From positions 1 through 64,000 of the forward strand of contig BPQB01000051.1 of NCBI GenBank assembly GCA_019973155.2: DNA of 64,000 bases, written 5' to 3'. The notes under the pieces were generated by a model. It saw only the letters and a program-made list of their open reading frames with translations, ran no database searches and was not told where the DNA came from. The stretch comes from Phanerochaete sordida. Its lineage: Eukaryota > Basidiomycota > Agaricomycetes > Polyporales > Phanerochaetaceae. The translations under genes were made by a program, and so were the position numbers. Positions 7,614 to 64,000 of the stretch are shown here, one piece after another (positions within the stretch are counted from its first letter, which is position 1; each line of letters begins with the position of its first letter).

Positions 7614-8956
7614 CTATGATTCAGATATGGCGGTATCGCTGCCCTTGTCGGCCCTACCCATACGCTCCTCGGCCGGCTCTCCTCTCTTTGCATGCTCGAG
7701 CCCGTGCAGGTCCACGAACCGCGCGTGAAGGTAGTCGGCAAAGTCCTGCGCGGCCTCGCGGAGCCGCTCGGCGCTCTCGGACTCGTGGTCCCAGTCCGCG
7801 ATAGCGTCGAAGAGCGTGAACCATTCTGCAAGCTGGGCAGCGGAACGGGTCAGCAGGCGACATGCGCGCGGAGCGATGGGGACGTACGCGCTCCGCGCCG
7901 ATTGCGACGTCCGCCGGCACCGCGAGCGGCCAGATGCGCAGGAGCTCGCGTTCGTGCGTGCGCACGGCGCCCAGTATCGTCACGAGGTTCGATACAATTT
8001 GCTGCTCCGATATGTGTAAGACTGCAGAGTTTGGATGGTGAGGTATAACGGTGCGTACTTCCATGGTTGTGATTGAGGCCGGCGGGGTCTCGCTGGTGAT
8101 GCTGTAAGAGAAATGCTCTATCTCTTCCCAGGCTTCGGATACAGAGGACATCACTCTGCCATAAGTGCGGGCTATGACAGGAGTCAGAACGTGGCGCAGA
8201 GTTCGTGAGGGTATTTGAAGCCTACATATCGTACTCTCGGCGAGTGTGCGCTGGAGACGCGCAGCCAGGACTTCTTGGAAAGCTTGCGGGCATAGCGCAT
8301 ACCGGTTTTGTGCGTGTGCCTCGAAGAATTCCACAGTCGTCTCCAAGTTCGCTTTGAGTGGCTCTCCTCCTCCTTCGACGGGAAACACGATGGGCTCGAA
8401 AGGACAGGCGGCCATTTCGTCCAAGACATGCATGTAGAGATAGGCGGCAGGGACAGGTGGCTCTGGATTCGTGGATTTGGCCTGGATTATCAACTTCATG
8501 AGGGCGCCTTCGTCGGCGTTGAAGTCGAGCACGCGGCGCAAAGCACGCCGCAAAGACTCGATCTTTGGCCAGAGCCTCTCTTCTAGCATGCGTGGCCAGA
8601 AATATCAGCCAGATAGAGCGAAATCGCAACGGTACGCACGCACCACCATACGCAGACGCGAGATAGGGGGATACCAAGTGCGCTGCTCAGAACGATGAGG
8701 GCGGTCTGGCGCACTTGGTACGAGACCCCTAGCAGGGCGATGATAGGTGCCCCTATCTACATTTCAAACCTAGAGAATTAGCGGGAAAGGAATACGGTAG
8801 AATGTGTGCACATACATGGCTGGTATAGTCTCTGTCGGAAAGAGAGACAGGGGAGGACAAGGATCCGACGAGAACCTCGTCCAAATGGCGCGCTATCGCC
8901 CGGGAAATAATCGCATGGAGTATTTCAGCGGGGAATGTAGCACTGTGTTCGAACAT
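7614..8956 (-). CDS. Family A paired protein, copy A1 (splice-site defect)
   Basis: Exons on the minus strand: 8956-8816, 8756-8644, 8587-8226, 8171-8059, 8001-7888, 7832-7614; 353 aa if intron 2 is removed at the ancestral place. Exon sizes (141, 113, 362, 113, 114, 219) match the other A copies. The N-terminus reads FPAEILHAIISRAIARHLDE. The acceptor of intron 2, CAG in the other copies, reads CAT at 8590-8588. Splicing to the next in-frame AG, 12 nt downstream, would only delete four residues (LEER). The gene may thus still be functional, or it may be starting to decay. It faces B1 across 321 bp. I know no function for this family. Confidence 0.72.
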
Positions 8957-9277
8957 ATCTAGAACACGCCGATAAAGAAGCTTGAAAGCTCGGGCGAAGA
9001 TGGTGCAGATGGAAGTCAACGTTGGGCGAGGCAAAGTACCGCAACCTGGGCGTTTCGGCGGTAAAAACGCTACCGGCGCCATCCGAAGAGCCGATGGCGC
9101 ATCAAAGCCCTTTCTGGGACTGAGGCGGGACTGCGACGGCTCCCACTCTCTCCAGAAACCCTCATCTTCGCGCTCGCCGCCCACCGACGAAACCGAAGTT
9201 CTCCACCACCTTGGGTTCGCCTCACGCGTAATACTCAAGAGCTGTTACATCCGACACGTCCTGCAGAACGTCCAGCC
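8957..9277. promoter_or_regulatory. Bidirectional promoter of pair A1/B1
   Basis: 321 bp between the two divergent start codons. The B-side core GGCGCATCAAAGCCC is at 9096-9110 and is followed toward B1 by a GC-rich block (GAGGCGGGACTGCGACGGCT) repeated in other pairs. The A-side element CTGGGCGTTTC (reverse of GAAACGCCCAG) is at 9046-9056. The CACGTG box present in most other pairs is missing here. Confidence 0.6.
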
Positions 9278-10523
9278 ATGACGAGACCACCCGCCGAAGT
9301 CCTTCACCTAATCATCACGTCCTACGTCGCCGGGTACGTCGACGAGACGTTCGGGCCACATTCACGCCCGACGGGAGAGGGTGGCGGCGGCGGTGGCGGC
9401 GAACAGGTGAGTCTGCCACATCTCGTTAAGTGCGCGCTGTGACGCTAAGGTTGACATGGACGAAGGCCGCGTTTGCTGTCCTGCCGCTCCTCTTGACGTC
9501 GTACCAGTTCCGCCAAATAACGCTGGGAATACTATCGCAGTACTCAGGGGTGCCCCTGGACGAATCTGGCGAAAGGTGCGTCGCGCAGACGATGGCACGT
9601 GCAGCAACCTCTCACCTCGTCTTAGACTCGAGACTCCCCCATGGCCCCGCACCTTCGACGTCTACGCCGTGCTGTCTACGCAACTCAAGCCGGGTGCGGT
9701 CCTCACGAAGGCAGTGTCTCAAACAGGATCGTCTCCGGCTGTCGCCCTGTGCATCTTCGCGAAGGCAGCACTTCGAGAGATCCGACGCCGGCGACGAATG
9801 CAAAACGTCTCCACGCTCGCTCCTACGGGCACCCCGCGCTGGAGCGACGACCAGGACATGTGGGAGAATGCTTTGCGCGATGCGCTCAACGCTTGTGACA
9901 CCGTGCCGCTCAGCCCTCCGACGACGCACGCGCTGCGCCAGTGTGCGCAGGATACACTGACGAAGGCTATCCTCGGTGCGCAACACTTTAGATTTCTCCC
10001 TCCTTCTTGGCCTGACGCTGCTGCAGAGAAACGATACGCGACGCTCATTTCAGCGCTCGTGGGCCGCCTGCAGCATCTGTGCAGGCTACGTACAGACGTC
10101 TCGACGATGCAAAATGAGAGATTCGTGCTGGTATGTGAGGTTCGATCGTCGTCGAAGCGCAGAGCTGATGTTCGCGCGTCAGTGGTCCCTCATTCACCTA
10201 CTCGGCGTGCTAAACCGTGCAGACGAAGAGACGCGGGACGAACGAACAGGCGAAGTGCGAGGTCCGGGGATGATGCCCGACACAGAGGATGTGCGTTCCT
10301 TTTGGACGAAGCGTTCTCGACGTCCGCCCGTCGGGCTAACTCATGCTTTCAGTTCGCCGACCTCTGCGTGCTGGCGCAGCGCGTTATAGACCTGGATTTG
10401 CCGCAATCGGATGGGCTCACGAGCTGCAAAGCTCTTGCGGGCACCCTGAAGGGCGAATGGGAGCAGCAGCTATTGCGGATGCGCCACGACGTGCGACCTG
10501 CAGCCCGCAGTTCCGATCTGTGA
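9278..10523 (+). pseudogene. Family B paired protein, copy B1 (frameshifted)
   Basis: Exons 9278-9406, 9450-9575, 9626-9975, 10027-10130, 10183-10290, 10353-10523. Exons 3-6 are intact and exon 3 has the family length of 350 nt. Exon 1 reads RPPAEVLHLIITSYVAGY and ends in an unusual run of seven glycines. Exon 2 is 126 nt instead of the 128 nt of its close relative B8: two bases are missing near 9474-9477. The frame that joins exon 1 therefore does not lead into the conserved LPLLLTSYQFRQITL segment. No alternative splice site that I tested restores the frame. Pseudogene or sequencing indel; the partner A1 also has a defect. Confidence 0.65.
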
Positions 10524-15391: not shown

Positions 15392-16721
15392 CTAAGAATT
15401 CGAGATGGTCGTGTAACTTCCTGTCTCACCCGTCCTCGCACATTCGGCGAGCTCTCTCTCATACGCACGTTCCATCTCCCGGAGGCGTTCGTAGAAGTAT
15501 GCGGCAAAGTCCCCTGCCGCCTCTCGGAGCCTCTCTGCGCATTCAGAGTCGTACTCCCAGTCTGCGATGACGTCTAGCAGGGTGAACCATTCGGTAAGCT
15601 AGCAGCATCGGTAGTGAGCAAGGAGCGCATGCACGATGTAGAGGACATACGCGTTCTTCGCCGATTGCTACGTCAGGCGGGATTGTGAGATACCACGTGC
15701 GAATAAGCTCTCGTTCCTGCACGCGCACGCCTTCCAGGACCATCTCGAGGTTCGATATGATTTGCTTTCCGGACATGTGTTAGGCCCATATTCATGGACG
15801 GTACAGTACGAGAGTGCGTACCTCCAGAGTCGCGACAGAGACCAGCGGAGTCTCGCTGGCAATGCTATCGGCGAGCTCCTGTACCTTTTCCCAGGCAGCA
15901 GTGATTGACGAAAGCACTATGACATAGGTGCGTGCTGTGGAAGGTATGAGCCGTTAATGCCCGCCTCGCCCGGGTCGATGACACGTACATATCGTGCTCT
16001 CTGCGAGCGTGCGCTCCAGCCGTGCAAATAGCACGTCCTGAAAAGCTACTGGACATTCAGCGTATTTCTCCGAGACGTGGGCCTCGAAGAACTGGGCAGC
16101 CGTTACGATGTCCACGGTGAGCGGCGCGTCCCCTTCAACAGGAAGGATGAGTGGCTCGAACGGGCGGGCGGAGATTTCGTCCAAGACGTGCAGGTAGGAG
16201 TAAACGGCAGGGACGGGGGCTTCTGGCTGTTCGGATGTCGCCTGGGCTATGAAGTCTATGAGGGTGTATCTGTCAGCGTTGAAGTCGAGCTTGCTACGCA
16301 GAACGCGCCGGACAGGCTCAATCCTGGACCAGGGCTTTTCTTCCAGTCTACAGGGCCACTCATTTAAGCCATCTCTGAAATAAAAATAAGAGATGGTGCG
16401 CACCGCCATATGCCGACGCGAGATAAGGGGATGCTGAGTGCGCTGCTCAGGACCATGAGGGCTGTCTGGCGCACTTGGTACGAGACGGCCAGCAGCACAG
16501 CGATAGGTGCACTTATCTACAGACACCCACATCGCATGAGTCAGCGCACAGAAACCCTGTAAAAGTGCATGGATGCATACATAGGTGAGATAGTTCCTGT
16601 CGAAAGCAAATCTACGCGCGGATAGATACCCAACAAGGACGTTGTTGACATGACGTGCTATCACGTGAGAGACTATTGCGTGAAGAATCTCTGGAGGAAG
16701 TATCGGACGGTGGCCTTGCAT
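15392..16721 (-). CDS. Family A paired protein, copy A2
   Basis: Exons 16721-16581, 16516-16404, 16347-15989, 15934-15822, 15764-15651, 15598-15392; 348 aa; sizes 141, 113, 359, 113, 114, 207. Every splice site is GT-AG and all phases fit, so the copy looks intact. It begins MQGHRPILPPEILHAIVS. Exon 2 carries SYQVRQTALMVLSSALSI, the block most clearly shared with family B, and exon 3 opens RLEEKPWSRIEPVRR. The acceptor of intron 4 is AAG rather than CAG. Its divergent partner B2 is a pseudogene, so A2 may act alone or with a B protein from another pair. Unknown function; no signal peptide or membrane span is evident. Confidence 0.82.
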
Positions 16722-17035
16722 GGCTGCAACACGCCAGCGAGCAGTTTCGAGAGTTGAAGCTGAAGACAGAAGACGCAGATGGAGGTCGAGGTCGAGTGGG
16801 GCTCGGAGCCTCGGACGGCTCGGTTCGCGGGTGACCGGGCGTCTCTGGGTACACGTGGGACACGGGCGCATCAAAGCCCCGTTTTGGCTGGAGGCGGGAC
16901 TGCGATGGCTCTCACACTCTACAGCAACTCTCATCTCAGCGTCCGCCGACGTGTCCGACGACGTCCAGCATCTTCAAGTGAGTGCCAGTGCGTCATATAG
17001 AGTCACGTCCAACACATCGCGCAGACCATCCCGAC
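16722..17035. promoter_or_regulatory. Bidirectional promoter of pair A2/B2
   Basis: 314 bp between start codons. The core GGCGCATCAAAGCCC is at 16865-16879, and the following block toward B2 (GAGGCGGGACTGCGATGGCT) is nearly identical to that of pair A1/B1. CACGTG is at 16852-16857, with a GAGACGCCC-like element on its A side. The promoter is well preserved although B2 is broken. Confidence 0.62.
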
Positions 17036-18301
17036 ATGACACGGCTACCGCTCGACGTCCTTCACTTGGTTATCGCGGTGTATGTCATCGGGTTCATCGA
17101 GGACATGTTTGGTCCACGTTTCAGCAGGCTCGAGGAGGAAAACGACGGTGAAGAAAAGGTGCGCCTCCTGCATCGCCAAAAGTGCTCAATGCAACGCTGA
17201 AGCAGACGTGAAGCAAGACAGCGTTCGATCTGTCCTCCCGCTTCTCTTGACGTCGTGCCAGTTCAGACAGACTACACTGAAAATCCTGTCGTAGTACCTG
17301 GACGTACCGTTGGATAAATCGGGCGAAAGGTGAGTTACGCCCTCGATGGCACGTGATGGGGATCTCACCTCGTCACAGGTTCGAAACACGCCCATGGCCA
17401 CGCTCCATCGACATCCAAGCGGCCGTTGCTAGCCTTTCAAGCACGGAAACTATCTTCACGGAGCTCGTATCTGTTACAGGCCCGCCGCCCGCCGTCGCCT
17501 TGTGTGTGTTCGCGAAGGCTGCCCTGCGCGAGATCCAACGCCTGCGACGGGTGGAGGTGCGCCATGTCTCCCCGTGGACCACCGGCGCAGAAGTAGGAAG
17601 GTGGGGAGACGACCGGGCCAAGTGGGAGTATGCTCTGGAAAATGCGCGTACTGCCTGCCATGAGCCGCTCCGGGTCCCCTCGACGGCGCAGACGGTGCTG
17701 CGGCGGTGCGCACGGGACACCCTGGGAAAGGCTGCGGTCGGTACGTATCACATTGTCTTGCCGCCCTGCAAAACCCAACGCCGGCGCAGTCATGCACTAC
17801 TTTGGTGTAGCTGCAGACGTTATGCACCAGATTAGGATCATACGCCGCCGCGCGCTGGCGAATACTGCGCTCCATGGCGCTGACTCCGAGGTGCGCCAGT
17901 CGCCGCATTGCCGGTCAGGCCAGAAGCTGATTTTTGTACAAGATGGCTCTCGCGCACCTCTTTACGGCGCCTCTGCTCTTCGACGCGTATATCTGCGATG
18001 GTCGAGGGGATGAGATGCGCACAGCAGCAACCGCGCCCAACAGAGACGAGGTATTCTCCGGTTTGAGAGACTGCAGCCGTGTTGCTTTGCATGCTCATTG
18101 ATGTCTTAGATCAACGACGCCTGTACCCTGATGCAGCGCATTCTGGACATAAATTTCACCGGGTCCTACACGCTGGCCAAGTGCAAGACTCAAGCGCGCG
18201 ACTTGAAGGACAAATGGGAGCGACAGTTGATGCAGATGAGCGACGTTCGACAGTCTGTGACGGTGGATATCGACGAGTTCAGCTACGTTCTGGAAAAATG
18301 A
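17036..18301 (+). pseudogene. Family B paired protein, copy B2 (pseudogene)
   Basis: Recognisable exons: 17036-17158, about 17205-17329, 17379-17740, about 17772-17890, 17943-18050, 18110-18301. Three independent lesions are visible. The intron-1 acceptor is altered relative to B8 (GCTGAG to GCTGAA), so the nearest AG brings in an immediate stop. Exon 2 has an in-frame TAG at 17292-17294 within LPLLLTSCQFRQTTLKILS. The intron-3 acceptor is CAA at 17769-17771 instead of CAG. Exon 3 is open and conserved (ETRPWPRSIDIQAA, VALCVFAKAALREIQR). Exon 6 has a longer tail than other copies. Nearest relative B8. Confidence 0.72.
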
Positions 18302-19030: not shown

Positions 19031-20366
19031 TTACGAATCCGAGATAGCAGTGTAGCTCTCCCTCTCAATTATATCCGCATGTTCGGCGAGCGCGATCTTC
19101 TGAGCACACTGGAGACGCTCCAGCTCCAGGGCCCGGTCGCAAAACTCCTCGTAGAAGTCGTCTGCCGCCGCGCGCAGCCGCTCTGCGCACTCGGCGTCGA
19201 ATGCCCATCCGGAGATGATCTCGAACACGGCGATCCACTCGTTGAACTGCGGCCGGAGCGGGTCAGCACTGCGTGTGTGCGCGGGGCGGCAGACGTACAC
19301 GGGCGACGCCGATCACGACGTCAAGCGGCACTGCAAACGGCCAGATGTGCCGGACCTCTCGGTCGTAGGCGTGCATCTTGCCCAGTGTGTCCATGAGCTC
19401 CGACACCGCGCCCTGTTTATGTGTTAGGACAGAGCGTACGGCCGTTCGGCGTGAAAGCGCGTACGTCCACAGCCGAGAAGGCGCCCGGCGAGGTCTCGCT
19501 GGTGAGGTTCTTGGCAAAAGCCTCGAGTTCCTCCCAGGCTTCGTACACCGAGGAAATCACCGCGCCATAGATGCGTGCTAGGGCAGCGCTCAGCGCTGGA
19601 CGGATGGCGCGCGAGGGTAGCGGAAGCACATACACACTGCGCTCTCCGCAAGCGAGTGCTGCAGACGCATGAACAGGACTTCCTGGAACGCTGCCGGGCA
19701 GGCGGCGAACTGAATTTTGACGTAGCGTTCGAAAAGCTGCACGGTGGTCTCTTGGTCCGCTGTGAATGGCGCGCTGCGCCCTGGCACGGGTAGGACCACC
19801 GGCTTGAAAGGGCGAGCGGAGATCTCGTCCAACACATGCGTGTAGACATACACGGAGGGTATCGGCGGCTCGCGCTCCGGCGATGCCGCTTGAGACATCA
19901 ACCTGATGAGGATGTGCTTGTCGGTGTTGAAGTCGAGCTCGCGACGCAGGAGACGCCGTATGGACTCGAGCACCGGCCAGGGCCTTTCCTCTAGCCTAAA
20001 AAACGGACCTTTAATTCAGTCACACAGAAAGAGCGAAACAGCACGCGTACCGCCATAATCCAACGCGAGATAAGGGGATACCGAACGCGCTGCTCAGTAT
20101 GATGAGGGTGGTCTGGCGCATCTGGCACGAAGCGACCAGAAGCGCGACAATTGGTGCACTCGCCTGGATATCCACATCAAAAAGAGATCGCTGAATACCT
20201 AGAGATCGGAACAATATATGCATACACGACTGCTGTGGTCTGTGTCGAAGGGAGACACAGGCGACGATAAAGATCCGACGAGACAGTCGTCGAGATGACG
20301 GGCTATGACATGAGAGATGACCTTGTGGACTATCTCGGGAGGGAGTACGGGACCACAGCTGGTCAT
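19031..20366 (-). CDS. Family A paired protein, copy A3
   Basis: Exons 20366-20226, 20163-20051, 19995-19634, 19577-19465, 19412-19299, 19246-19031; 352 aa; sizes 141, 113, 362, 113, 114, 216. All sites are GT-AG and in phase. The start MTSCGPVLPPEIVHKVIS gives the exact family exon-1 length. Exon 5 (GAVSELMDTLGKMHAYDREV) is more diverged than in A1 or A2. Its own promoter core lies at 20501-20516, but the B gene expected beyond it is absent. A3 is therefore an orphan member of a former pair. Confidence 0.8.
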
Positions 20367-20839
20367 TACTCAGACGAGCCGAAGGAGCAGCTAGAGAGCA
20401 CAGGTAGGACGAAGTAGAGGTCAAGGTCAAGGTGAGACAGCTCGATTCGCTGGCGAGCGGGATTCCCGGCTCCCACGTGATATTCGCTTGGCGAGTGGAG
20501 GGCGCATCAAAAACCCGTTTTGGTGCGAGGCGGGACTCTGCAGCACCCTCAGGTGGCGTTGACGGGCTAAACATGTCCCAATGTGCGTCTGGTAAGCATA
20601 ATGTGCGTATGATATATGCTGATCGTTCATGTCACAACGATGTGCGCGTCTCTGCCGGGTATTCGGAGAACGGTGATGCAGCTATAATACAGAGGGCGAG
20701 TCGCAGAGCGGAGCACGATGCCGGTGAGCGGCTGAGAAGCGTATCGTTACGCAAGTTTGAGTCACGAAGCCTATCCTGTATCTTCTCGATGACGAGCTAG
20801 AAGAAGCTCTGCTTTTGATGCAGATTCGATACGATTCTC
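20367..20839. promoter_or_regulatory. Promoter of A3; expected B partner missing
   Basis: CACGTG at 20474-20479 and core GGCGCATCAAAAACCC at 20501-20516 followed by GAGGCGGGACTC, in the usual order away from A3. Beyond about 20560, where a family B exon 1 should begin, I find no B sequence up to the A relic at 20840. Confidence 0.5.
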
Positions 20840-21160
20840 TCAGCACGGCCGCCCCACCCCAAGCCTAAGCCGTACCAGCCGCGCACGCAAGGCGGCCGCC
20901 GAGGCCCGCGCTGCCTTCCGGAGCTCCGGCACGCCCTCGCACGCGCACTCCCACGCGGCGATCTCCTCTAACAGCGCGAGCCACTCCGCAAGCTGCGCGA
21001 TAGGTAGTCAGCCGAAGGACGCTCAGGCAACGGGTGTGTGACGCACGCGTTCCGCACCGAGCGCCGCGTCGAGCGCGACGGCGTGCGCCCAGGTAAAGAG
21101 CGTGCGCAGGTGGTCGTTGGAGCGACGTCCAAGAACGGCGATGAGGAAGGTGCAGCTCGA
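20840..21160 (-). pseudogene. Truncated family A relic (exons 5-6 only)
   Basis: Exon 5 at 21160-21047 reads LIAVLGRRSNDHLRTLF...DAALGAER and keeps the exact 114-nt length and the GT donor. Exon 6 at 20992-20840 reads LAEWLALLEEIAAWECACEG and ends in TGA. Exons 1-4 are gone: the DNA upstream of exon 5 is already the pair promoter facing B3. This is the remnant of B3's former A partner. Confidence 0.7.
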
Positions 21161-21432
21161 GAGACCGCATACAACGACTCGAGGAAGGCGGAGGGGTGCG
21201 CCACGTGGGGCAAAGTCCATTCAAGCACAGGACATGCCATATGCAGTCAACATGGAAGTTGCCGATGGCGCGTCAATGGAACCCCGCGCCTGCCCCTAAC
21301 CTCGAATCCACCTTCCACCGTCGCTGTCACCGCCGCCGACGCGTTAGCCTGGCCAGTCGCTCTGGCCTGCATGAAACGCGTTCTCTGCCAGTGCGACACC
21401 CACCAGACCCTGCAATCCGCCCGGGACTAGTC
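21161..21432. promoter_or_regulatory. Promoter of B3 (former bidirectional)
   Basis: CACGTG at 21202-21207 and a core variant GGCGCGTCAATGG at 21267-21279, 150-160 bp before the B3 ATG. The same variant (GCGCGTC...TGGAAC) is found at B5, in line with B3 and B5 being the closest B paralogues. Confidence 0.5.
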
Positions 21433-22648
21433 ATGACGACACTGCCTGTCGAGATCCTACAAACGGTCCTCGCGTTCCACGTCGCGTCGTACGTCCACGA
21501 GATGGTCGGCCCACACGCGGAGATCACGGAGGACGAGAAGAAAGGTGGCAAAGATGTGCTGCAGTTGCTCTTTGGCGTCTATGCAACTCTTCTAACCCAG
21601 CCCCGCAGGCCGTGATACGGACCGTCGCCCGCCCGGTCCTGCCACTCCTCCTCACGTCATACCAATTCCACGACATCACGCTGGAGACGCTGTCCACGCA
21701 CCTAATGATACCGTTTAGTGGGCCGCGCGACAGGTGCGTGGCATGTTCACACGCCCACACCGGTGATACTGACCTAACAGCAGAGTTGAGGACAACCCGT
21801 GGTACCGTCTGGCCCTCGTCCGCGCGTTCGTGCTCGACGGAAGGCTGAGCGGACCGCTGCTCTCAGACCCCATATCCGTCGCGCACACGTCCACCACCCT
21901 CGCCGTGTACGTCTTCGCCAAACGCGCCCTCCTGGAGCTCGCGCGCGTGCAGTGCCCGTACGACCTCGCGACGTGCACCATGGACCGGCAGCAGTTCTCC
22001 GTCGCGCGCAGCGCGTCGCAGGACGCGCTGCTCAGCATCGAGGCCGCCTTCCGCAGGCTCCCTCGCGTGCCCCCCGCGCTGCTCCCGCCGCTCCGGCAGC
22101 ACGTCATCGACGTCTTCTGCCCGGTCCTGCTCGGTGCGTCGCTCATCGACGCCTCGCGCCATCGCTGACCGCCCCCCCCCCAGCGTGCCGCGTCGGCATC
22201 CCGCTCGCGATGCTCGTACACTCCTTCGGCATCCTTCGGCAGTTCCAGGCCCTCGACGCGAGGCGCGAGCCGGGCGCGCCCGCGAGCCTGCCGGTGGGTG
22301 CATGCGCTGTGCGTTTAGAGCTGGGGCTGACGCCGCCGCGCTAGCTCTTCCTCCCAGACTTCCGCGCGTCGCTCCGCCTCGCACACGTGCAAGACGCGCA
22401 GATCCTCGGGATGTTCACGATGCGCACGCGCGGGACGGCGCTCGACGCGCCGATGGTGCGTCCTCTCCCGCCAGTCGCGTCCGTGGTCCGCTCACGATGC
22501 GCTGCGCCAGATATTGGATCTGTGCGCAGTCCTGCAGCGTATTGTGGACAACGACGTCCCCGAGTGCGAGCTGTATGAGGAGTGCAGGGACGTCGCGCGC
22601 AGTATTCACGACGAGGTTGACGCGCTGCTGCCGCTCATACAAGGATGA
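21433..22648 (+). CDS. Family B paired protein, copy B3
   Basis: Exons 21433-21555, 21609-21733, 21784-22133, 22184-22293, 22345-22455, 22511-22648; 318 aa; sizes 123, 125, 350, 110, 111, 138, identical one by one to B5. Intron phases 0,2,1,0,0; all GT-AG, the third acceptor following a run of nine C. The N-terminus is MTTLPVEILQTVLAFHVASY. Exon 2 contains VLPLLLTSYQFHDITLETLS, exon 3 contains TLAVYVFAKRALLELARVQ, and exon 6 reads ILDLCAVLQRIVDNDVPE. The protein is soluble-looking, helical and Leu-rich. Its GC content is clearly higher than that of its neighbours. Unknown function; its own A partner is reduced to a relic. Confidence 0.83.
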
Positions 22649-27279: not shown

Positions 27280-28591
27280 CTAATTCGATGGAAACGTTGA
27301 CCTTTCTGCTTCCTCAGACTCGGCGAGCCCACCCGCGGCGCCCGCGTCCGTGCCCTCGGAGGCACCCAGGGCAAGCAGCCGTGCGTGGAAATAATCGGCA
27401 AAGTCCTTCGCGACCTCCTTGAGCTCCTGCGCGCTTTCGCATTCGTACTCCCACCGGGCCATGTCATCGAAGAGCCCACACCATTCCGCGAGCTAGTCGA
27501 ATGTTCAGCAGCGTTCCTATACGGGGCGCGGGAGACGTACGCGGTCTGCGCCGATGGCGACGTCGATGGGCACGGTGTGCGGCCAGTTGCGCCGCACCGC
27601 ACGCTCTCTCACGTGCATCTCGCGCAAGATCGTCGCCAGCTCCTGCGCCACCCGCTGCTGTGTGTCAGCGCGTGCCCCGTGAAGTTACGAACGGCTGCGT
27701 ACGGCGCATGTGGCAGCAGGCTCGGCGCCCACGGTCTCGCTAGCAATGCGACGCGCGAGGTTTGCTGTCGCGGTCCAGGCTTCTGATATAGGGAGGATCA
27801 CCCCAGTATGGAATTGTGCTGGCAAACTAGTCAGGATGTGGTGCGGGTCTGTGAAGGGCGGGTTGGGCGTACCGATGGCGTTGCGAGCGAGCGAGCGGTC
27901 CATGCGCGTGTACAGCATTTCTTGAAAGGCGCTTGGACATTTTGCGTAGTTCTCCTGGATGTGGCGGTCGACGAGGAGGGCGATTCCGCATGAATCTAGA
28001 GTTATAGGTGTTTGGCCCTCCGGGCCGGGAATAAAGAGCGAGTCGGGGAGACGTGCAGACAACTCGTCCAAAACGTGCGTGTAGACATACACGACCAGAA
28101 CTGGCGGCTCTGGATGTGTCATTACGACTAGAAATCCGGTAAAGGAGCGTTTGTCTGCGTGGAAGTCGAACGTGTGACGCAGCAGTTGTCGGACACGGTC
28201 GATCTTCTTCCACGGCTTGTCTGCCAGCCTGAATGGTGGGGTTGGTAGGCTCCACTGATGCGGCAGAAGAGACACGTACTTCCATATGCCAACTCGGGAC
28301 AAAGGAATCCTGAGCGCATCGGACAGGACGATGAGCGCGCTCTGGCGCACTTGGCACGAGACAGCGAGTAGGGCGGTCACAGGGGCCGCCATCTAGAGCT
28401 AGTATTCAGACGGCACGGCATTTCATGAGTAGCTATTTCGCACATACCTTGTTGTTCCTGTCTCTCTCTTCCTCAGGAGCGGTACCGAGGGACAGAGGCC
28501 CAACGAGGACGTCGTCGAAATGACGCGCAATCGCGCGAGAAACGATTGCGTGGACTATCTCCGGGGGAAGCACAGGGTAAGAGGCGGCCAT
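27280..28591 (-). CDS. Family A paired protein, copy A4
   Basis: Exons 28591-28448, 28392-28280, 28228-27873, 27818-27703, 27654-27541, 27492-27280; 351 aa. Exons 1 and 4 are each one codon longer than in A5 (144 and 116 nt); the phases are unchanged and all sites are GT-AG. It begins MAASYPVLPPEIVHAIVSRA. Exon 4 has lost the ARTYG motif typical of other copies and reads AQFHTGVILPISEAWTATAN. This is the only A copy whose B partner (B4) is intact on the left half of the array, but the two starts are 1.7 kb apart. Confidence 0.82.
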
Positions 28592-46296: not shown

Positions 46297-47555
46297 CTAG
46301 ACACTCAGTTGTGCAGGCTGTGCCGCGAGACTCATCCGTGAAAGCTGCAGCTGGAAGTCGTCCTTGAGGGAGCATGAAAGAGCGTGACATGCGTCGTAGG
46401 CCTCAGACGCGGGAGCGTCCATATCGATGACCTTCTGCAGTAGGGTGCAGAGGTCAATGATCTGCAAAACCACATATTAGCATGAACATACATGCCGCGC
46501 GCAAGCACACGAAACGGGGCCCACCGTATGGGTTTCGGGCATCATCATGTCCTCGCTACGTTCTTGTTTCCGCTCAAAAAGCGTCTCTTCTTCCATCTGG
46601 CGAAGCTTCGGAAGAAGCCGAGGCCAGTATCTCTAAAGAGGGCCCGTAAAAGGCGCGCCAGTTTAGACGGGAAGAATGACGTACAGACAGAAACTGGGGA
46701 TTATCCTCACTGCTCTCCAGGTCGAGCTGCCGTGCGGCATGTAGAGCCTGCACGTTTCGTACGAGCGTCGTCAAGAGCCTTCCGTACTTTTGCGCTACAA
46801 CACCGTCAGATACAAAGCGCGATTCGAACATCAGACAGAAGCATACCAAGCGTTGCCTTGGGGAGTGTATGGTGTGCATGACGGAGAAGCAGTGGCTGTA
46901 TCATGGAGGGCGCAAGTGGCACCTGCTCGCAGGCAGCAGACGCGGCCTGCACCGCATCGTCCCACTGAACTGTTGCGTTCCAAAATTTCAGGCCGTCGAC
47001 ATCAAGCGTGGCGACGTCGTACGTCTTCGGGGCGACGCTAAGTTGGTGCAGCGCGGCCTTCACCCAGACGTATACGCCCAGGGTCGGAGACGTGCGCGCG
47101 ATCGACATGAGTTCGGCGACAATCATCCCGGTCCTTAACCCGGTGAGCACAAACGCGCGAACTGCAGCAAGGCGCGGCCATGGGCTGCTCTCGAGCCTGG
47201 GATAAGGTCAGAACCATCTCTGTCACGGCATGCACGTGCAGCGCACCTCGCGTTCGGCACGTCTAGTGGTATCACAAAGTACTTCGACAGCACGCCGAGA
47301 GTAATCTGGCGGAATTGGTATGACACAAGGAGGCATGACAGGATAGGCTGGGAAACGACGATCCTCGAGGCCTGCATGGTAGGCTCAGTAAATCATCAGA
47401 TAGTATGCCAGAGAGCTTCGATACAACACCGTTCCAGTGTCGTCGTCCTCTTCGTCTTCGATCGCCTGTGCACGCGGTCCCACCATTTCGTCGATGTGCA
47501 CAACGACGTAGAGCTCGAGCACTCCATCGAGGATCTCTACAGGCACTCTCGTCAT
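46297..47555 (-). CDS. Family B paired protein, copy B6
   Basis: Exons 47555-47430, 47371-47247, 47196-46847, 46794-46685, 46632-46525, 46461-46297; 327 aa; sizes 126, 125, 350, 110, 108, 165. Start MTRVPVEILDGVLELYVVVH followed by an acidic DEEDDDTGT. Exon 2 ILSCLLVSYQFRQITLGVLS; exon 3 SSPWPRLAAVRAFVLTGL and TLGVYVWVKAALHQLSVAP; exon 5 RYWPRLLPKLRQMEEETLFE. The longest C-terminal exon among the complete copies. All sites GT-AG, in phase, no lesion. Pair with A6. Confidence 0.85.
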
Positions 47556-47904
47556 TCTCGAGAGCTTCGTAAACGGCAAGCCTGGGTAAGCATCGTAATG
47601 AGAGGGCGTTCGCTGCGCATACCTGCGAGCTTTGGGCGATCGATATCGCGCTGGCAAAGGTCTCGGCGGCGGTCGAATGTAGAGCGATGTTAAGGGCATG
47701 AGAAAGTTCAGGGCCGTCCGCGTGATGCGCAGCGACCCGAACCTTCATGCCCGAATTTGGGCACGGGTGCGCCAGCGCCTGCACGTAACAGGCGCCTGGT
47801 TTCCCGCTTCCGCGTTTTGTCCGCATTCCCTGTTGTGGTCGATTGTCTACGAGGAAGGCTTTCGCCTGCAACTTTCGTCGACATTACTGAAGCAAACCGC
47901 TGCG
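47556..47904. promoter_or_regulatory. Bidirectional promoter of pair B6/A6
   Basis: 349 bp between start codons. The conserved elements are weak here: only GCGCATCACG on the minus strand near 47730-47721 and a CACGTA near 47780 recall the core and the CACGTG box. This is the most diverged promoter of the set. Confidence 0.4.
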
Positions 47905-49250
47905 ATGCTATACCGTCAACCCGTTCTTCCTCCGGAGATTGTCCACGCCATCGTTTCCCGAGTTGTTGTGCGTCACCTCGACGACGTCCTCGTGGGCCCG
48001 ATGTCTGCGCTCAATGCTCCTCATGTCGACGGATCCGATGTTGAAGTATGTTGTCGCGCACTAATATATGGAAATATGGGTCCTTTCGTAATCTGACTGA
48101 GCTTCAGACGGGTGGCCCAGTCGCCGCGTTGCTCGTCGTCTCATGCCAATTTCGGCAGGCGACTATCATGATCCTAGCCAATGCTCTCGACATCGCCATA
48201 TCTAGAGCTGGAGTATGGAGGTACAGTGGTGCACTTACCGGTCACTTCACGCGTCACATTGGTCATGTTCTTCTGCAGACTTCTAGAGAAGCCATTGGAG
48301 AAGATCGAGCCGGTGCGGGACTTCCTTGCAGCCCGTGTCGTCCACGACGGAGTGCCAGAGCACATAATCGACTTTGTGCTCACTGCCAAAATAGAACGGT
48401 CTCCCGTTCTATCGGTCTACGCTCATTTACATGTCTTTGAAGAGACCACTGCCAATCCCTTCCCACCAATCTCTGTTCCGAACGCAGAGGGAGAAGACCA
48501 CTTAACGCTGACTTTGGAGGTAGTCTACGACTTCTACGAGTCTCGACTGCGGGAGAAATACGACGAATGTCCCTCCGTGTTTCAAGACCTCTTTCACGCA
48601 CGTATGGAGGGCGTATTCGCGCGGTGTACCGCAAGTACGTATGTGTAGCATTCGTTTGTTGATTCTGCGCCTAATCAGGCTGGGCGTGGTCAGCATTGGT
48701 ATATGATAACCTCATGAAACTGATGGAAGAGTCATGGGGCAAAATATATGAGTTATCGGCCAACATTCTCGGCGACCCTCTGCTGATTTCCGGGGACGAA
48801 CTCGAAGTATGCACTTCCCCGTCGCTTGGCGAAGTAATACCCACTGAATTGTACAGATCCACATCACGTCACTCACGAGTTCCATCCGCCACCTGCCCGA
48901 GCACGAGCAGCTCCTTCGTTCGACATGGACGTACTCAATGTCTGTAGACGCCGCAATTGGCGAGTCGCGCGTACACCCCATGTTCTCCCCGCGCCACGAC
49001 CCCCGCTGACCTTCTGTCCCAGTTCGAGGATTGGATTCTGCTGTTTAGCATTATAGCGAGATGGACGTCCCGGTGCAAAAGCATGCCGGAGCTGCTGAAG
49101 GCGGCGCAGGACGCCGAAGACGCGTTCCGCGCACGGCTCGCGCGCCTACGCGGTGAAGATGTCCCCCGCGACAGCGACCATCGCGCCGTTCTATCGCAGG
49201 AAGTGGCAGGCGGAAGCAGTGAGGGAACCGCTATGCTGGAGAGTACCTAG
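47905..49250 (+). CDS. Family A paired protein, copy A6
   Basis: Exons 47905-48045, 48108-48220, 48279-48634, 48694-48806, 48857-48970, 49023-49250; 354 aa; sizes 141, 113, 356, 113, 114, 228. It begins MLYRQPVLPPEIVHAIVSRV. Exon 2 LLVVSCQFRQATIMILANAL uses the QFRQ form otherwise typical of family B. Exon 3 RLLEKPLEKIEPVRDFL lacks the conserved Trp after P. Exon 5 IHITSLTSSIRHLPEHEQLL. Intact; partner B6 intact; together a complete pair. Confidence 0.84.
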
Positions 49251-49384: not shown

Positions 49385-49486
49385 GCCTGCACAGAACGTG
49401 ACTCTCTCTTTGTTCTTCCTGTGCATATACGCCACGACATAGAATTCAAGCATTGTCTTCGGAATTGCGGCAGATAATATCGTCGT
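49385..49486 (-). pseudogene. Family B relic B7 (exon 1 only, start codon lost)
   Basis: On the minus strand 49486-49385 reads TILSAAIPKTMLEFYVVAYM, aligning with TMLPAEILHGVIELYVATH of B4. The codon in the place of the initiator ATG is ACG. No exons 2-6 follow before the end of A6. It sits divergently upstream of A7, 323 bp from its start, at the normal pair spacing. Confidence 0.6.
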
Positions 49487-49809: not shown

Positions 49810-51117
49810 ATGGTCGACCTTCGCCCTGCTCTTCCTCCAGAAATTGTCTACACCATCGTATCTCGGGCAATAGCGCGACACCTCGACGATGTTCTCGTCG
49901 GACCCTTATCATTGCTAGCTGTGCCCTCTAATCAGAAATGCGATAACGAGGTGATCTACTGCTCAATGTGTGATGCTTTTGACGGAATATCTGACTCGAG
50001 AGCGGAGACAGGAGACCTTGTGAACAGCCTTCTCGCCGTCTCGTATCAAATACGCCGCACAACGCTCAATGTTCTGGCCACGTTTCTCGGAATAAAACTT
50101 TCCTGCTACGGAATATGGAGGCACGTATGGCTTCCGCTTCTGCGATACACAGCAGCTCAAACCCCCAATCCCTCGCAGACTACAAGCACCGCCCTGCTCC
50201 GTACTCAAACCTGTCAGAGGATACCTCATACAAAGGCTCGACCTCCGCGCCGACGACCGCGTGCTCAAAGCTCTATTGTGCAACACTGAGCACTCCGAGC
50301 CCCCGGCCTTGGCTGTGTATACATATACACATGCCCTCGAAGAGATTTGCGCGCGTCCATTCGACTCCGTGGCCGTCACTGATCCAGATGGGATATCGGC
50401 TCCGGTCGTTATACCCTTCAACTACATTTCGCAGCTGTTTCGGTTGCATGTGCTGAAGAACTACGCCGAATGCCCCGAGGCCCTTCAGGAGGTGCTGTTT
50501 GAGCGCATGGAGGGCGCGCTCGCCCGCAGTGACGCAGGTACGTCCCAACAGTCAGACGAGCTCTGCGTCTAAGTTTTTATGATCCTGGCAGAGATGTTCT
50601 ATGGCACGGTGCTGCCCCCGATAGAGGAGATGTGGGGAAGAATCAGCGCTGTCGCGCACCGCGTCACTGACGACGCGCTGTCGCTCGCTGTGACGGCCTT
50701 CGACGTACGTGCGCCTGCGTTACTGCCCGCTCCTTCGTTTAACTTTGTGCAGGAAGTCATTGGAAACCTCGTCAGGGTGCTGCGCAAGATACGCAGAGGC
50801 GAAGACGAGGTCCTACGCGGCTGGCCGCACAGCGTGTCGGTCGACGCCGCGATCGGCGCGAAACGCGTAGGTCCACGTGTACCTCCGCGCATATAGTCAC
50901 CCGTGTTCACCTTCCTGCCTAGCTTGATGCCTGGTGCGCGCTCTTCAACGAAATGGCCGACCTGGAGTGCGTTTGCGACAGCGCGGAGGAGCTGAGAGAG
51001 GTGGCGCAGGACCTCGCAGATTCGTTTCACGCGCGGCTGGAAAGCCTCGAGGCAGCGGAAGGGAGGCGAAGCGTGCGGCGAGCGGCTGGGACAGAAGCCG
51101 AAGTAGGAGTCGCGTAG
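49810..51117 (+). CDS. Family A paired protein, copy A7 (GC donor in intron 2)
   Basis: Exons 49810-49950, 50008-50120, 50179-50537, 50592-50704, 50753-50866, 50923-51117; 344 aa; sizes 141, 113, 359, 113, 114, 195. Start MVDLRPALPPEIVYTIVSRA. Intron 2 begins GCACGT instead of GT, a minor but functional donor class in fungi; exon lengths confirm the position. Exon 3 has lost the (R)PWPKIESVRR motif of other copies (RLQAPPCSVLKPVRGYL). Exon 4 reads AEMFYGTVLPPIEEMWGRI. Orphan of a broken pair. Confidence 0.78.
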
Positions 51118-51575: not shown

Positions 51576-52790
51576 TTAGCGCATCCGTAACAACCGTTGC
51601 TCCCACTCGCCCTTCAGAGTGCATGCAAGAGTTTTGCACTCGGTAAGCATATCTGATGACTCGGTGCATTGCACGTCCATGACGCGCTGCATAAGCGAGC
51701 AGGCGTCCTTGATCTGACAAGATCAATGAGTGCGATGGACGACATCTACGTACAATCCATGCAGATTGAACGTACGTCTTCTATTGCAGGCAGCGTTGCC
51801 TCTGCTCGCAAGTCGCCCTTTTGCTCTTCACGGATCTCTTCGCCCGCGCGCCGTAGAATCGGCAGCAACTGCAATACAGACACCTGAGAAGCAGATGTCA
51901 GTTCTGGACCAAAGCAGCGAGAGGAAGAACGGAATACCGGAATATACCCCATGTGGGGCGCGATGTTCACCATGATGCGTACATTTTGTATCATCTGCAC
52001 GCTATGCATGACTCGGGCGATCAGCGCGGTATACCTCACCGCTTTTCCAATGTTATCTGCAGGCCAAAAGAGGGGTAAGGTGCCACATACCGCGCAGAGC
52101 GTCTTTTAAGGTACCATGCGCACACTCCCGTAGCAGCGTCTGCGCCGCTGGAAGGACGAGTGGCTCCGTGTCGCAGGCATTCGACGCATCGGTCAATGCT
52201 TGCATCCACGCAGTACGCTGGTGGTCAGTCCATTCTCCGCCGTCGGCGATAGTGAACGCGGAGACGTTGCACATTCGCCGCCGGCATCGGATCTCTCGCA
52301 GCGCGGCCTTGGCGAAGATGCACAGGGCGACGATCGGGGTCGCAGCTGTGAAAGAGACCAGCTCTGCGACGATATTCTGCGGCGTAGGCTGACTGAACAC
52401 GAATGCTCGAACATCGAACGCGCGCGACCATGGGCGGGTCTCGAGCCTGAGACGAGGTGAGATTCCTCTTTGCATGCCATCGAACGTGTAGCGCACCTTT
52501 CGCCAGACATGTCCAGAGACACCCCCAGATACCGCGATAATATCGCCAGCGTAATCTCTCGGAACTGATACGACGTCAAGAGGAGCGAGAGGACCGATTG
52601 AACGTGGCTCTGCTCCTTGTCTGCCTCAGCGTCACCTCGCACACGTTATGGCATGCGGCAAGCTCACCTGCACCTCGCCATCATGTTCACTTCCTACTCG
52701 GCTTGAACAAGGTCCGAACGTGTCCTCGAAGTACCCGGCGACGTAGGACGAGATGACTAAGTGGGAAACCTCAACGGGTAGTCTCGTCAT
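51576..52790 (-). CDS. Family B paired protein, copy B8
   Basis: Exons 52790-52668, 52624-52497, 52446-52091, 52056-51938, 51883-51776, 51713-51576; 323 aa; sizes 123, 128, 356, 119, 108, 138. Start MTRLPVEVSHLVISSYVAGY. Exon 2 VLSLLLTSYQFREITLAILS; exon 3 RLETRPWSRAFDVRAF and IVALCIFAKAALREIRCRR; exon 4 starts DNIGKAVRYTALIARVMHS; exon 6 IKDACSLMQRVMDVQ. Intron 3 is only 34 nt, unusually short. Exons 1, 2 and 4 identify it as the closest relative of the pseudogenes B1 and B2, for which it is the intact reference. Pair with A8. Confidence 0.83.
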
Positions 52791-53382
52791 GTCTGTAGGT
52801 TCTGCGGAATTTATGAGACATACCGGCACTGATATATCAACTTACCTGAAGCTCCTAGAAGAGGTCGGTCCTGGCGGTGAGCGTGGAGAGTGAAGATGAG
52901 GGTTCCTGGAGAGTGGGAGCCATCGCGATCCCGCCTCAAGCCAAAAGAGGCGTTTGGCGCGCCCTCGGTTGAGCGGGCCGACTGGACCACGTGGGTAGCG
53001 AAACGCCCAGCCACTCGTAAATTGCTGTTTCTCCTCGACCTTCACCTGGGCCTCACAGGGTGATTCTGGGGATTGTTTTCGTTGGAAAATGGGCTCAAAA
53101 TTGGACAATAATGGCGTGGTTTTATGACCGTTTTCTGGATTCCAAAAGTGATGCTAACTTACAGCTTTTGTGCCATTTTCGCGCGTTTTTCCATGATTGT
53201 ACCCGAAATCTACCGTTTTTCGCCAGTTGATAGACCAATTTACAGTGGCGTTCAACTGTTAGAAAACGATGACTTTGTCGCCCAATTTTATGACCGTTTT
53301 CCGACCAAACAAAGTCCCGGAATCACCCTGTGCCTGTCATCCCGGAGTTGAGAGACGAGGACATCCGCGTCCGTTTTGAGTC
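52791..53382. promoter_or_regulatory. Bidirectional promoter of pair B8/A8, interrupted by a MITE
   Basis: 592 bp. Core on the minus strand about 52963-52949 (GGCGCGCCAAACGCC) with the GAGGCGGGATCGCGATGGCT block toward B8. CACGTG at 52988-52993 and GAAACGCCCAG at 53000-53010 toward A8. Removing the 279-bp element at 53054-53332 and its duplicated CCT leaves 310 bp, the normal pair spacing. Confidence 0.68.
53054..53332. mobile_element. MITE-like element 2 (279 bp) in the B8/A8 promoter
   Basis: Starts CACAGGGTGATTCTGGG and ends with the complement of CACAGGGTGATTCCGGG; the match continues imperfectly for about 38 bp. It is flanked on both sides by CCT (53051-53053 and 53333-53335), a 3-bp target-site duplication. 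It is much more AT-rich than the host DNA, with an internal repeat (TTTTATGACCGTTTTC near 53115 and 53287) and no coding capacity. A 3-bp duplication fits CMC/EnSpm- or Harbinger-type elements; the class is not decided. Confidence 0.8.
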
Positions 53383-54710
53383 ATGTCCTCCCGCAAGCCT
53401 ACACTTCCTCCTGAGATACTTCATACAGTCATCTCCCAGGCGATAGCGCGTCATCTCGACGACATTCTCGTCGAAACTTCGTCCTCGCTCGTACCTCCGT
53501 CCGACACAGATACTGATAATGAGGTATGCACATGTGCCTTACCATGCGAACTCACGCCGATATTCTTGACGTGAAAACTCAGATAGAAGCACCTGTCGTC
53601 GCTGCGTCTTTGCTTGCGGCCTCGTGCCAAATGCGCCACATCGCTCTCATCGTCTTGAGCAAAGCGCTAGGCATCGCCTTATCTCGCGTCGGCATATGGA
53701 GGTGCGCCCTTTCGTCTATCGATTTTGCAGAGTCTCATCCCCCGTTTTGTCTCGCAGGCTGGAAGGGAACCCCTGGGCAGCGATCCACTCCGTCCGGCTC
53801 ACTCTTCGCCGCACCTACGACTTCAACGGGTACAGAGACATCATCGACAATCTGGATCCGCAATCGGAATCCACAGAATCCCCCGTCCTCTCTGTTTATT
53901 TCTGCATTCATCTCATTGCCGAAGTCTTCGCCCACCCTTTTGGGCCACTGGTTATACCTGTCGCTGGGCAAGAGCCACGCACAGTAAGCTCGGACTGGTT
54001 CGCGCGCTACTTTGAGATCCAGGCGCAGAAGTATTTCGAAGCGTGCCCGCCAGCGTTTCAAGAAGTCATCTTTCCGCGGCTAGATGCTGTGCGTGCGGAG
54101 AGCTTGATCGGTTCGCTTTATGTTCCCTCACAATCTCCACGTCAAGTTCTGATTACCTTCATAGCACGCACTTGCGGAAGAGTGATGCCCACTATTAGCG
54201 CTGCCTGGGAACGTCTGGAGGATTTTGCGAGTAGGGTGGACTCAGAGTCCCCGCGTGCTTCAGTCTTGGACGTACGCATGATTGCGCCACAGCCTCTATA
54301 TATTCCGGGCTGACATGCGATTGAGCAGAGAACTATTCGCAACATCGTAGGAGGGCTGGAAGATCTGCGCACGGAAGAGCGGAACCTCTTACGCTCCTGG
54401 CCGCATACCATCACCGCCGACGCTGCAATCGGCGTGGGTCGCGTCAGTCTACCCCTCCATGCGCGCTTCCACTGCTGACACGCTTCTTGGACAGCTTACG
54501 AAGTGGTTCTCACTCTTCTGTGACATGGCAGAGTGGGAGTACGACTCCGAAAGCGCGCAGACGCTGCGAGAGATTGCGCAAGACATCGCGGATGACTATC
54601 ATGCGCGGTTCGTAGCGCTTCACCGGCTCGCGCGCGCAAAGGAAGAAAAACTCGCCGAGTGTTCAGCCGCAATCGAGAGAGAAGGTTATACTGCTATAGC
54701 TGGTCCATAG
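53383..54710 (+). CDS. Family A paired protein, copy A8
   Basis: Exons 53383-53523, 53583-53701, 53758-54110, 54165-54271, 54329-54442, 54495-54710; 349 aa; sizes 141, 119, 353, 107, 114, 216. Exon 2 has two extra codons and exon 4 two fewer than A5, with phases kept. Start MSSRKPTLPPEILHTVISQA; exon 2 LLAASCQMRHIALIVLSKAL; exon 3 RLEGNPWAAIHSVRLTLRR. Exon 4 starts ARTCGRVMPTISAAWERL. Exon 6 LTKWFSLFCDMAEWEYDSES. Intact. Its upstream region carries the MITE-like insertion, which may affect expression. Confidence 0.84.
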
Positions 54711-62518: not shown

Positions 62519-62990
62519 TCAGAAGGCAGGTCGGCGAGAGAGGCACATGAGCTCACCTACAGCTTGCTGCTCGAAGCTGGCATTCCTATCATTGCCGAAC
62601 CCATACACGCCCAGCTCTTGTACAAACAAGGCTTTGCGATCGTTGAGCGTACGCAGGATCTGCTCGCTTTCGTAGCAGCGCCTCGCGCCGCGCTTCACCT
62701 CAGCGTTCGGACATATCTTAGCTCAGTTCAACACATTGCGGTGGGATACATACGTGGGGGGAGGGAGAGGATCTCGCAAGAGGGCGGGGTCTGGGTGTAT
62801 GCGCTCGGGCAGGCTGCGGTGGGAGCGCGTCGTCGGCATGCCGAGGTCACTGTGTGGTCTAGAGAGCGCGGGTCAGCTCAGTTCAAGAGATTTCGTTGGG
62901 ATACACACGTAGGGGAGCAGGAGAGAATCTCGCAAGAGGTCGCTGGTACCTGGTGGTCGAGAAGATCCTGAAGAAGTCCAACCACTCAAA
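62519..62990 (-). pseudogene. Collapsed F-box-like relic (promoter joined to C-terminus)
   Basis: On the minus strand 62715-62519 reads ICPNAEVKRGARRCYESEQI...LNDRKALF and ends in TGA, homologous to the C-terminus of F-box 2 (MCPDAEVKRGAWRARDNKRA...LNERKALL). Directly upstream, 62990-62740 aligns with the DNA before F-box 2 (about 22860-23020), sharing GGCATGCCGACGAC and GCGCATACACCCAGA. The roughly 1.5 kb between promoter and C-terminus are missing. The preserved C-terminal frame independently confirms the frameshift I infer near 24470 in F-box 2. Confidence 0.68.
62721..62955. repeat. Partial tandem duplication, period 155 bp
   Basis: Segments 62721-62800 and 62876-62955 both start GCTCAGTTCAA and share GGGATACA, ACGT and ATCTCGCAAGAGG at the same spacing. 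The duplication lies in the promoter part of the F-box relic. Confidence 0.65.
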
Positions 62991-63672
62991 TCCGCACCTC
63001 GAGGGTATGACGTCACGTGCGTTCGACCGCCTCCCACGCCTCTGCGGCCCAGTCCGGCGTGGAGAGTTGGACAAGCAGCAGACAGAAAGGTATCAGACAT
63101 GGTCGGCAGGGAAGGAGTCGAAGAAGTGTTCGAGAGATGGCAGAGACTGAGGGCAGACAGGTCGTCGATGCCCACCATAATTTTCAACGACAGTCGTCCC
63201 GGGTGTTGGGCGACTAGACGGAGGGGTTGTCTGTGATATATCCTCAGAGATGGGGCCTCGACGTTTGGTTCAGCGATGAGCCCGAGGACGCGTAGTCAAC
63301 TTGGAAGTCAGGACGCAGACGAGCACCATCCTGCGATGAGTTCTGACGGATCGCCGATAAGGACCGACGAGGGAGCCTCACCGCCCTGCTACACGCACGC
63401 CAGCTCGGATCCAGACCTGTGACGAAGAACGGATGCGATTACGCAAAACTGGTAGTTTAATGCCCTCGCGCGGTAGCTATTGCTCCTCGGCGAGGTTCCT
63501 AAGGGTCGTGAGAGTCGTGATGTACAGCGGTGAGGCGGGTAGGGGAGATGCATGAGTTGACCGGAACCGCATGTGTGACAAACAGAGAAGATCCAGGGAA
63601 TATCCAAAGGGGAAAGGAGAGAGAGGGGTCGAATGGAGGGCGAGAAATAGCATGAGGGCATGTAGTCGTCCG
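62991..63672. other. Intergenic, nothing recognised
   Basis: 680 bp between the F-box relic and B9. No conserved protein or repeat seen. Confidence 0.45.
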
Positions 63673-64000
63673 TTACGACGACGGCGGTACGGTTGCGCTA
63701 GTGGCCTGCGCTGTTCCACGGATCCTAGCGAGCTGCTCCTCGTATTCATCCTTGAGCGTGCGCGCGAGGGCCTTGCACTCCTCGTACACCTCCGAGTCGG
63801 GCACGTCAGTGTCGAGGACACGCTGCATCAGCTTGCACAGGTTCGCGATCTGCACCGCGCAGATCAGCACGACGTCACAGGCACACCACCGCGAAACGAA
63901 CGCACATCCTGCGTCTCAGGCATCCTGACGTCCGCACGCCCGCCATGTTTCCGCTCTACGTGCGTGCCCGTGTCCGCGTGGCGCAGCATCTGCAGGAAGC
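63673..64000 (-). CDS. Family B paired protein, copy B9 (cut by window end)
   Basis: Exon 6 at 63849-63673 reads IANLCKLMQRVLDTDVPDSE and YEECKALARTLKDEYEEQLA, the family C-terminus. Exon 5 runs from 63906 past the window end and finishes RMPETQD before a GT donor, like MMPDTED of B1. Exons 1-4 and the A partner must lie beyond 64000. No lesion in the visible part. Confidence 0.75.

Follow-up and report, generated by a model that had tools for sequence, protein, structure and literature searches.

What does it mean when two genes point away from each other across a short spacer, in copy after copy along one contig of a fungal genome? This question is raised by the first 64,000 bases (C51:1-64000, in the following the window) of the 235,257-base contig C51 of Phanerochaete sordida YK-624, a wood-rotting and transformable fungus (PMC8530024). 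An original prediction had described here an array of two different proteins, A and B, always encoded as a divergent pair, amplified together and kept open in several copies. The array is real, tidier than first described and clearly more than chance. The central puzzle is no longer one of two unrelated proteins; it now concerns duplicates that have diverged and yet stay paired on one compact spacer. The explanation favored here, at a probability of about 0.45, is that of divergent paralogue pairs with a common promoter, whose partners would be made together and act in the same complex.

Profile comparison, gene structure and structure prediction show A and B to be ancient paralogues of one family with about 300-350 residues. 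They are homologous because their profiles match over 307 columns, their introns share positions and phases, and the same order of helices is predicted for both, so that the description as two different proteins has to be given up. The HHalign comparison of the A profile (8 sequences) with the B profile (7 sequences), run without a shuffle control, yielded a probability of 99.2, E 1.9e-19 and 19% identity, and the A profile found seven of seven B proteins, the complete set searched, at E 1.4e-10 or better, with the third intron still held as residues in both of these first profiles. In a joint alignment of the corrected models, all 15 models agree in the column of intron 3 (phase 1) and in that of intron 5 (phase 0); for introns 2 and 4 (phases 2 and 0) agreement is found in 13 of 15, and intron 1, which falls within a variable loop, has phase 0 in 14 of 15. 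AlphaFold2 predicted the same helix order for A5 and B5 from input alignments which both contained A and B rows (predicted local distance difference test 77.9 and 71.7, predicted template modeling score 0.67 and 0.62). Identity between A and B is highest in exon 2 (39%) and ranges from 10 to 26% in the other exons, with exon 4 being the lowest (10%). The two genes would have originated by an ancient head-to-head duplication.

The number of intact copies depends on the gene model. Every A and B locus was modeled by a purpose-written spliced protein-to-DNA aligner, A and B from separate seeds, the A seed being the GenBank model of A5 (P0001). A first five-exon seed made several copies, many B among them, look broken in the spliced alignment; the GenBank model of A5 revealed an extra intron of 54 bases. 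This third intron (phase 1, 49-59 bases across the family) is contained in the GenBank models of A5 and B1 (P0001, P0004), and nearly all breaks vanish once it is added, whereby the many broken B genes of the five-exon models were rejected. Under the corrected model, seven of the eight A loci in the window are open (A1-A6, A8), as are seven of the eight B loci (B1, B3-B8), six of them wholly inside the window and B8, cut by the window edge, as read from the contig. Thus, the eight complete A genes proposed before are present as loci, with one of them, A7, damaged; the five complete B genes were an undercount mostly due to the missed intron, and the six or more broken copies were an overcount because the same intron had been overlooked, breaks occurring only in A7 and B2. 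The frame of A7 is apparently disrupted near 50.2 kilobases (kb), where the five-exon model has a frameshift, and a break-free reading needs introns off the family positions. A6 and A7 have one additional intron near the end. The GenBank proteins of this region carry tags between PsYK624_118190 and 118400 and belong to gene models built with BRAKER2 (fungus option) plus manual curation, transcript data being unmentioned in the source (PMC8530024). Compared with our own models, those of A5 and B1 are identical, A6 differs in its C-terminal splicing, A8 in its last residues, and B5 is a few residues longer inside.

The divergent orientation claimed wherever both partners survive was confirmed, with an A gene upstream of all seven B loci that lie wholly in the window; conversely, seven of the eight A loci have a B partner, A7 being the one without. 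The copies share descent, and their common orientation is therefore not an independent test. Start-to-start gaps in the seven pairs are 297, 314, 321, 349, 592, 1066, and 1695 base pairs (bp), so that the proposed spacing of 297-349 bp fits four of seven and fails for the three longest, two of which carry insertions. After these two insertions are set aside (A4/B4 to about 271 bp, A8/B7 to 313 bp), six spacers measure 271-349 bp between start codons, and the six pairs thus are divergent neighbors with close starts as in the definition of bidirectional pairs. The A4/B4 insertion measures about 1.42 kb and is a dispersed repeat whose similar ends begin with CCCAGTGA, with 81-90% identical copies on contig C11 and shorter copies elsewhere; it lies close to the conserved GGCGCATCAAA at 28687 and possibly is flanked by a 7-bp target duplication, CCTGAAC. 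The A8/B7 insertion is a 279-bp element with inverted ends resembling a miniature inverted-repeat transposable element (MITE), of which 93-97% identical copies were found on C30, C27, and C8. The 1066-bp gap between A3 and B3 contains an A remnant and one putative promoter block per side; A3 and B3 seem to be what is left of two separate pairs that were fused by a deletion. The remnant beside B3 was too short to place, with best scores for A7, A6, and A4.

Within the compact spacers, a conserved element was recognized. In BLASTN comparisons between spacers, pairs 1, 2, and 8 (p1, p2, p8) share stretches of 73-96 bases with 78-80% identity, and matches in other spacers are weaker. A block profile (nhmmer) built from five spacers (p1, p2, the B side of p3, p5, p8) also matched outside its training set, namely in the B8/C1 spacer beyond the window edge (E 4.6e-6), on the A3 side (3e-5), upstream of A7 (0.0013) and at an orphan block at 40.7 kb (1.9e-16), to which no A or B was found attached; the spacers of pairs 4 and 6 were not matched by this profile. 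Altogether, four of the six compact spacers hold one oriented, conserved block. The motif GGCGCRYCAAA has five exact matches in the window (9096, 16865, 20501, 28687, 52953), all of which fall within A/B spacers and share one orientation with respect to A and B; its position precedes the B start by 163-183 bp in p1, p2, p3R, p5, p8, and C1/B8. The conserved oriented block is read here as a putative common promoter of both partners. By eye, the profile alignment shows a splice-donor pattern some 60 bases ahead of the B start codon in six of eight B-side spacers (p2, p4, p5, p6, p8, C1/B8) and an acceptor pattern 11 bases ahead of it in p1, p2, p5, and p8, which is the pattern of a putative intron in the 5' leader of many B genes. 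TATA, CCAAT or telomere signals were uninformative.

The family continues beyond the window. B8 (C51:64924-63691) faces C1, a paralogue starting at about C51:65441 which belongs to a third subtype, C, and is 25-31% identical to A and 19-25% to B. C-type copies extend over C51:65438-82870, including a further diverged copy at about 82.6-82.9 kb (-), and those at 67088, 69319, and 80552 have no B gene on their upstream side as far as the sequence was read. On contig C72, the open A10 (C72:120334) faces a degraded member of a fourth subtype, E. The B8-C1 and A10-E pairs reveal that the family forms divergent pairs in more than one combination and, together with the B-less A7 and C copies, that pairing with B is therefore not obligatory. 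The notion of an invariable A/B pair accordingly holds for the seven B loci in the window and fails for A7, B8, and A10 as well as for the three C copies outside. The closest A and B copies sit on C51 (A also on C72); a clear match to B is restricted to this contig, the best one elsewhere (C131, E 0.003) having two stops. Outside P. sordida, the only relative among the matches listed in protein searches is P0007, a B-like protein from a JGI metagenome contig of 1170 bases with 60% identity to B8. The protein search was insensitive, its first pass missing A copies of 46-48% identity which were found by alignment search, and the lack of matches in other fungi is therefore not evidence of absence. 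A literature search found no paper on these genes, and the locus-tag stem PsYK624 was unmatched.

According to the favored explanation, A and B diverge from a compact spacer of about 300 bp, in most pairs with a conserved oriented block that may serve as the common promoter and keep both products made at the same time and place. Within one contig, the unit has been copied and flipped, has taken up transposon-like insertions and has partly been lost, probably with some exchange of partners between units. The two proteins might then belong to one complex, in which they would most likely be adaptor subunits, either alternative or heteromeric. The conserved N-terminal half (an LPxEI helix and an LLxxSxQxRQ helix) would dock to a common partner, as does the F-box of SCF ubiquitin ligases, and the client would be chosen by the helical C-terminal half, which is more variable. 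The explanation draws on the homology of A and B, the regular unit, the block with its motif, the constraint on the copies and the F-box lead. A joint function of A and B is plausible. Paralogue pairs with a compact common spacer have here been retained long after duplication, in a family that is absent from Pfam and for which the searches made gave no significant fold match in the PDB. Should the partners indeed cooperate, the six spacers, the relics of dead pairs and the C and E partners offer a natural series for the path from a duplicate pair to a two-part machine.

Several observations weigh against this explanation, concerning the motif, the protein family and the history of the pairs. 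GGCGCRYCAAA was picked after the alignment had been seen, it has three mismatches in the p5 and p6 spacers, and with one mismatch allowed its 10 occurrences in the window are not above chance (shuffle mean 6.0; 8 of 100 shuffles reach 10); therefore, the motif argument rests on position. The family can tentatively be described as fast-evolving, Pfam-less and mostly helical with an F-box-like N-terminus. None of ten family proteins exceeded any curated Pfam cut-off, the sole line at E up to 10 being one weak unrelated match, and F-box models were listed for none of the ten in this listing, from which HMMER filters drop most matches above about 0.1. In the genome, at least 148 F-box-like places exceeded the cut-off; the HHalign comparison of the family with 10 of these 148 gave a probability of 25 over 13 columns only, and one of 46 over 43 columns only after the loop was excised, although in both versions none of 60 column shuffles scored as high. 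A sequence search of the PDB returned nothing significant (best E 0.95), and Foldseek and VIA yielded no usable fold, A outside residues 197-341 being barely covered. On the supporting side, the claim that copies were kept open stands, most of them being open, old duplicates. Ratios of nonsynonymous to synonymous substitution rates (dN/dS; NG86) were 0.29-0.40 for A (nine listed comparisons out of 36), 0.29-0.71 for B (28 of 28 comparisons) and 0.26-0.48 for C (six comparisons), at dS of 0.71-1.94, which is near saturation and makes the ratios rough. The family copies are, by this measure, old and moderately constrained.

The gene trees stand against a simple common history. Pairs 4 and 6 are grouped in both the A and the B tree, which is the part of the proposed joint amplification that could be retained. 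The seven-pair trees share one of four splits, a value equaled or exceeded by 1840 of 5040 label permutations, and in approximately unbiased (AU) tests each tree was rejected on the other's data (p 0.001 and 4e-40). Mantel correlations were absent (r -0.07 for seven pairs, exact P 0.65; -0.08 for six pairs). Whole-unit co-duplication of all seven couples is thereby not supported. Leaving out A3/B3 lessens the conflict, though some remains: of the 105 six-pair topologies, of which 99 were parsed in one run and all 105 in the other, the A genes accept 18 and the B genes three, with none in common, and the best joint tree falls short by 3.5 log-likelihood units for A (AU p 0.42) and by 9.1 for B (AU p 0.026). 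A clade of A1, A2, A3, and A8, which would match the promoter types, was not rejected (AU p 0.33), whereas A1, A2, and A8 without A3 were weakly rejected (AU p 0.039). We infer that units were copied as units early and may later have undergone partner exchange or gene conversion, contrary to the simplest form of the original claim.

A serious possibility is that the array is a by-product of gene birth and death, one ancient inverted duplication having fixed the gene order, which copying then passed on, while the proteins are independent members of a fast-evolving family and their neighborhood is functionally meaningless. The disagreement of the A and B trees is in line with it, as are the C copies, A7 and A10 existing without B, the pairs of B8 with C and A10 with E, by which other paralogues can be the neighbor, and A3 and B3, which seemingly adjoin each other only through a deletion. 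Less easily reconciled with this account are the six spacers, which stay at 271-349 bp though dS between copies is about 1, and the restriction of a clear B match to C51. Moreover, the block in p1, p2, and p8 exceeds in identity (78-80% over 73-96 bases) the B1/B2/B7 coding sequences (about 58-62%, from codon-position differences), a comparison biased toward the block as the best local match. Another possibility, deemed unlikely, retains the joint action and sees in the array another recognition system built on pairs, the second in a mushroom-forming fungus, whose architecture would have converged on that of the homeodomain mating locus and in which matched A-B heteromers would show pair-varying partner specificity; if true, the partner exchange suggested by the conflicting trees would create new specificities.

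Paired retention, rapid divergence and the relics of dead pairs might also be expected from a poison-antidote or incompatibility pair, which would explain both paired retention and copy decay. This is very unlikely in view of homologous partners that are predicted to have their helices in the same order and are similarly constrained, of A10 being open without an adjoining B and A2 despite the stop in B2, and of no known Pfam domain over the cut-off. That the unit is the cargo or gene of a mobile element finds some backing in the repeats within two spacers; however, these are insertions with dispersed copies on other contigs, whereas the closest A and B copies are on one contig (A also on C72), which renders this origin highly improbable. 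The homeodomain (A) mating-type locus has the same architecture of divergent gene pairs, as described in the accessible part of the source (PMC3140503). It is refuted with near certainty by the absence of Pfam homeodomains in all ten family proteins; the three Homeobox_KN matches of the genome instead lie on C3 and C23. The divergent Homeobox_KN couple at C3:261442(-)/262936(+) may be the real A mating-type locus.

Table 1. Positions of A and B genes, spacers and related features in the window
Feature	Position	Strand	Remarks
A1	7614..8956	-	open; spliced alignment; exon 2/3 junction unlike other A models
A1/B1 spacer	8957..9277	.	321 bp; conserved block 9090-9186; GGCGCATCAAA at 9096
B1	9278..10523	+	open; GenBank PsYK624_118190, P0004
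A2	15392..16721	-	open; spliced alignment
A2/B2 spacer	16722..17035	.	314 bp; conserved block 16859-16960
B2	17036..18301	+	single in-frame stop at 17292
A3	19031..20366	-	open; PsYK624_118230, P0008
A3/B3 spacer	20367..21432	.	1066 bp; putative promoter blocks 20496-20551 (A3 side), 21261-21350 (B3 side)
A remnant, 3' part, inside A3/B3 spacer	20849-21145	-	last exons of another A
B3	21433..22648	+	open; PsYK624_118240, P0006
A4	27280..28591	-	open; PsYK624_118270, P0002
A4/B4 spacer	28592..30286	.	1695 bp; dispersed repeat ~28708-30131; GGCGCATCAAA at 28687
B4	30287..31512	+	open; spliced alignment
Orphan putative promoter block	40711..40792	-	84% identical to pair 1 block over 80 bases
B5	41036..42251	-	open; PsYK624_118330, P0005
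A5/B5 spacer	42252..42548	.	297 bp; block 42331-42420
A5	42549..43877	+	open; PsYK624_118340, P0001
B6	46297..47555	-	open; spliced alignment
A6/B6 spacer	47556..47904	.	349 bp; profile finds no block
A6	47905..49250	+	open; PsYK624_118370, P0010
A7	49810..51114	+	without B partner; weak putative promoter block upstream, 49545-49644
B7	51576..52790	-	open; PsYK624_118390, P0003
A8/B7 spacer	52791..53382	.	592 bp; block 52873-52969; MITE-like element 53054-53332
A8	53383..54710	+	open; PsYK624_118400, P0009
B8, 3' part	63691..64000	-	start codon beyond window, C51:64924; open in contig

Other genes share the window with the array. Three DUF6535 (PF20153) genes flank or interrupt it (1316-3001, 12197-14332, 57329-58894). 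A second multicopy family, F-box/leucine-rich repeat (LRR)-like by eye, is found at 5060-6657, 22719-24539, 25131-26778 (-), and 44440-46081 (+), its sole Pfam support being an F-box-like match below the cut-off at 5069-5548 (E 0.0068). Two of its copies, at 25 and 45 kb, lie in inverse orientation to each other, with 74% identity over 1097 bases. A piece of a ferric-reductase-type gene at 34528-35367 (-), with a FAD_binding_8 match (E 8e-13), is apparently unrelated to the array.

Several known systems come close to the array. Paired nucleotide-binding leucine-rich repeat (NLR) immune receptors of plants are encoded head to head, as divergent paralogue pairs in clusters; A and B have only about 300-350 residues, and no NB-ARC, LRR or TIR domain was listed by Pfam for the ten proteins. 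With F-box proteins, A and B share an LPxEI-type first helix and an N-terminal part whose conservation exceeds that of most other parts. They differ in being unlisted by the Pfam F-box models, in having no Pfam client domain of known type and in a modeled loop between the two N-terminal helices, about 12 residues long in A and 25 in B. The HD1/HD2 genes of Agaricomycetes are, according to the accessible part of the source, divergent gene pairs whose products dimerise (PMC3140503). A and B are likewise divergent (seven of seven B loci) but lack a Pfam-listed homeodomain, the genome's homeobox couple being on another contig. A formal likeness also exists to bidirectional gene pairs in general, which are defined, in the excerpt at hand, as divergent with start sites within 1 kb (PMC2648788) and, in the portions available of two further sources, are often co-regulated (PMC3024869, PMC4997330). 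Divergent genes with a short common spacer are common to both, whereas the A/B array, known here from its sequence alone, differs in that the partners are paralogues and the pair itself is multicopy.

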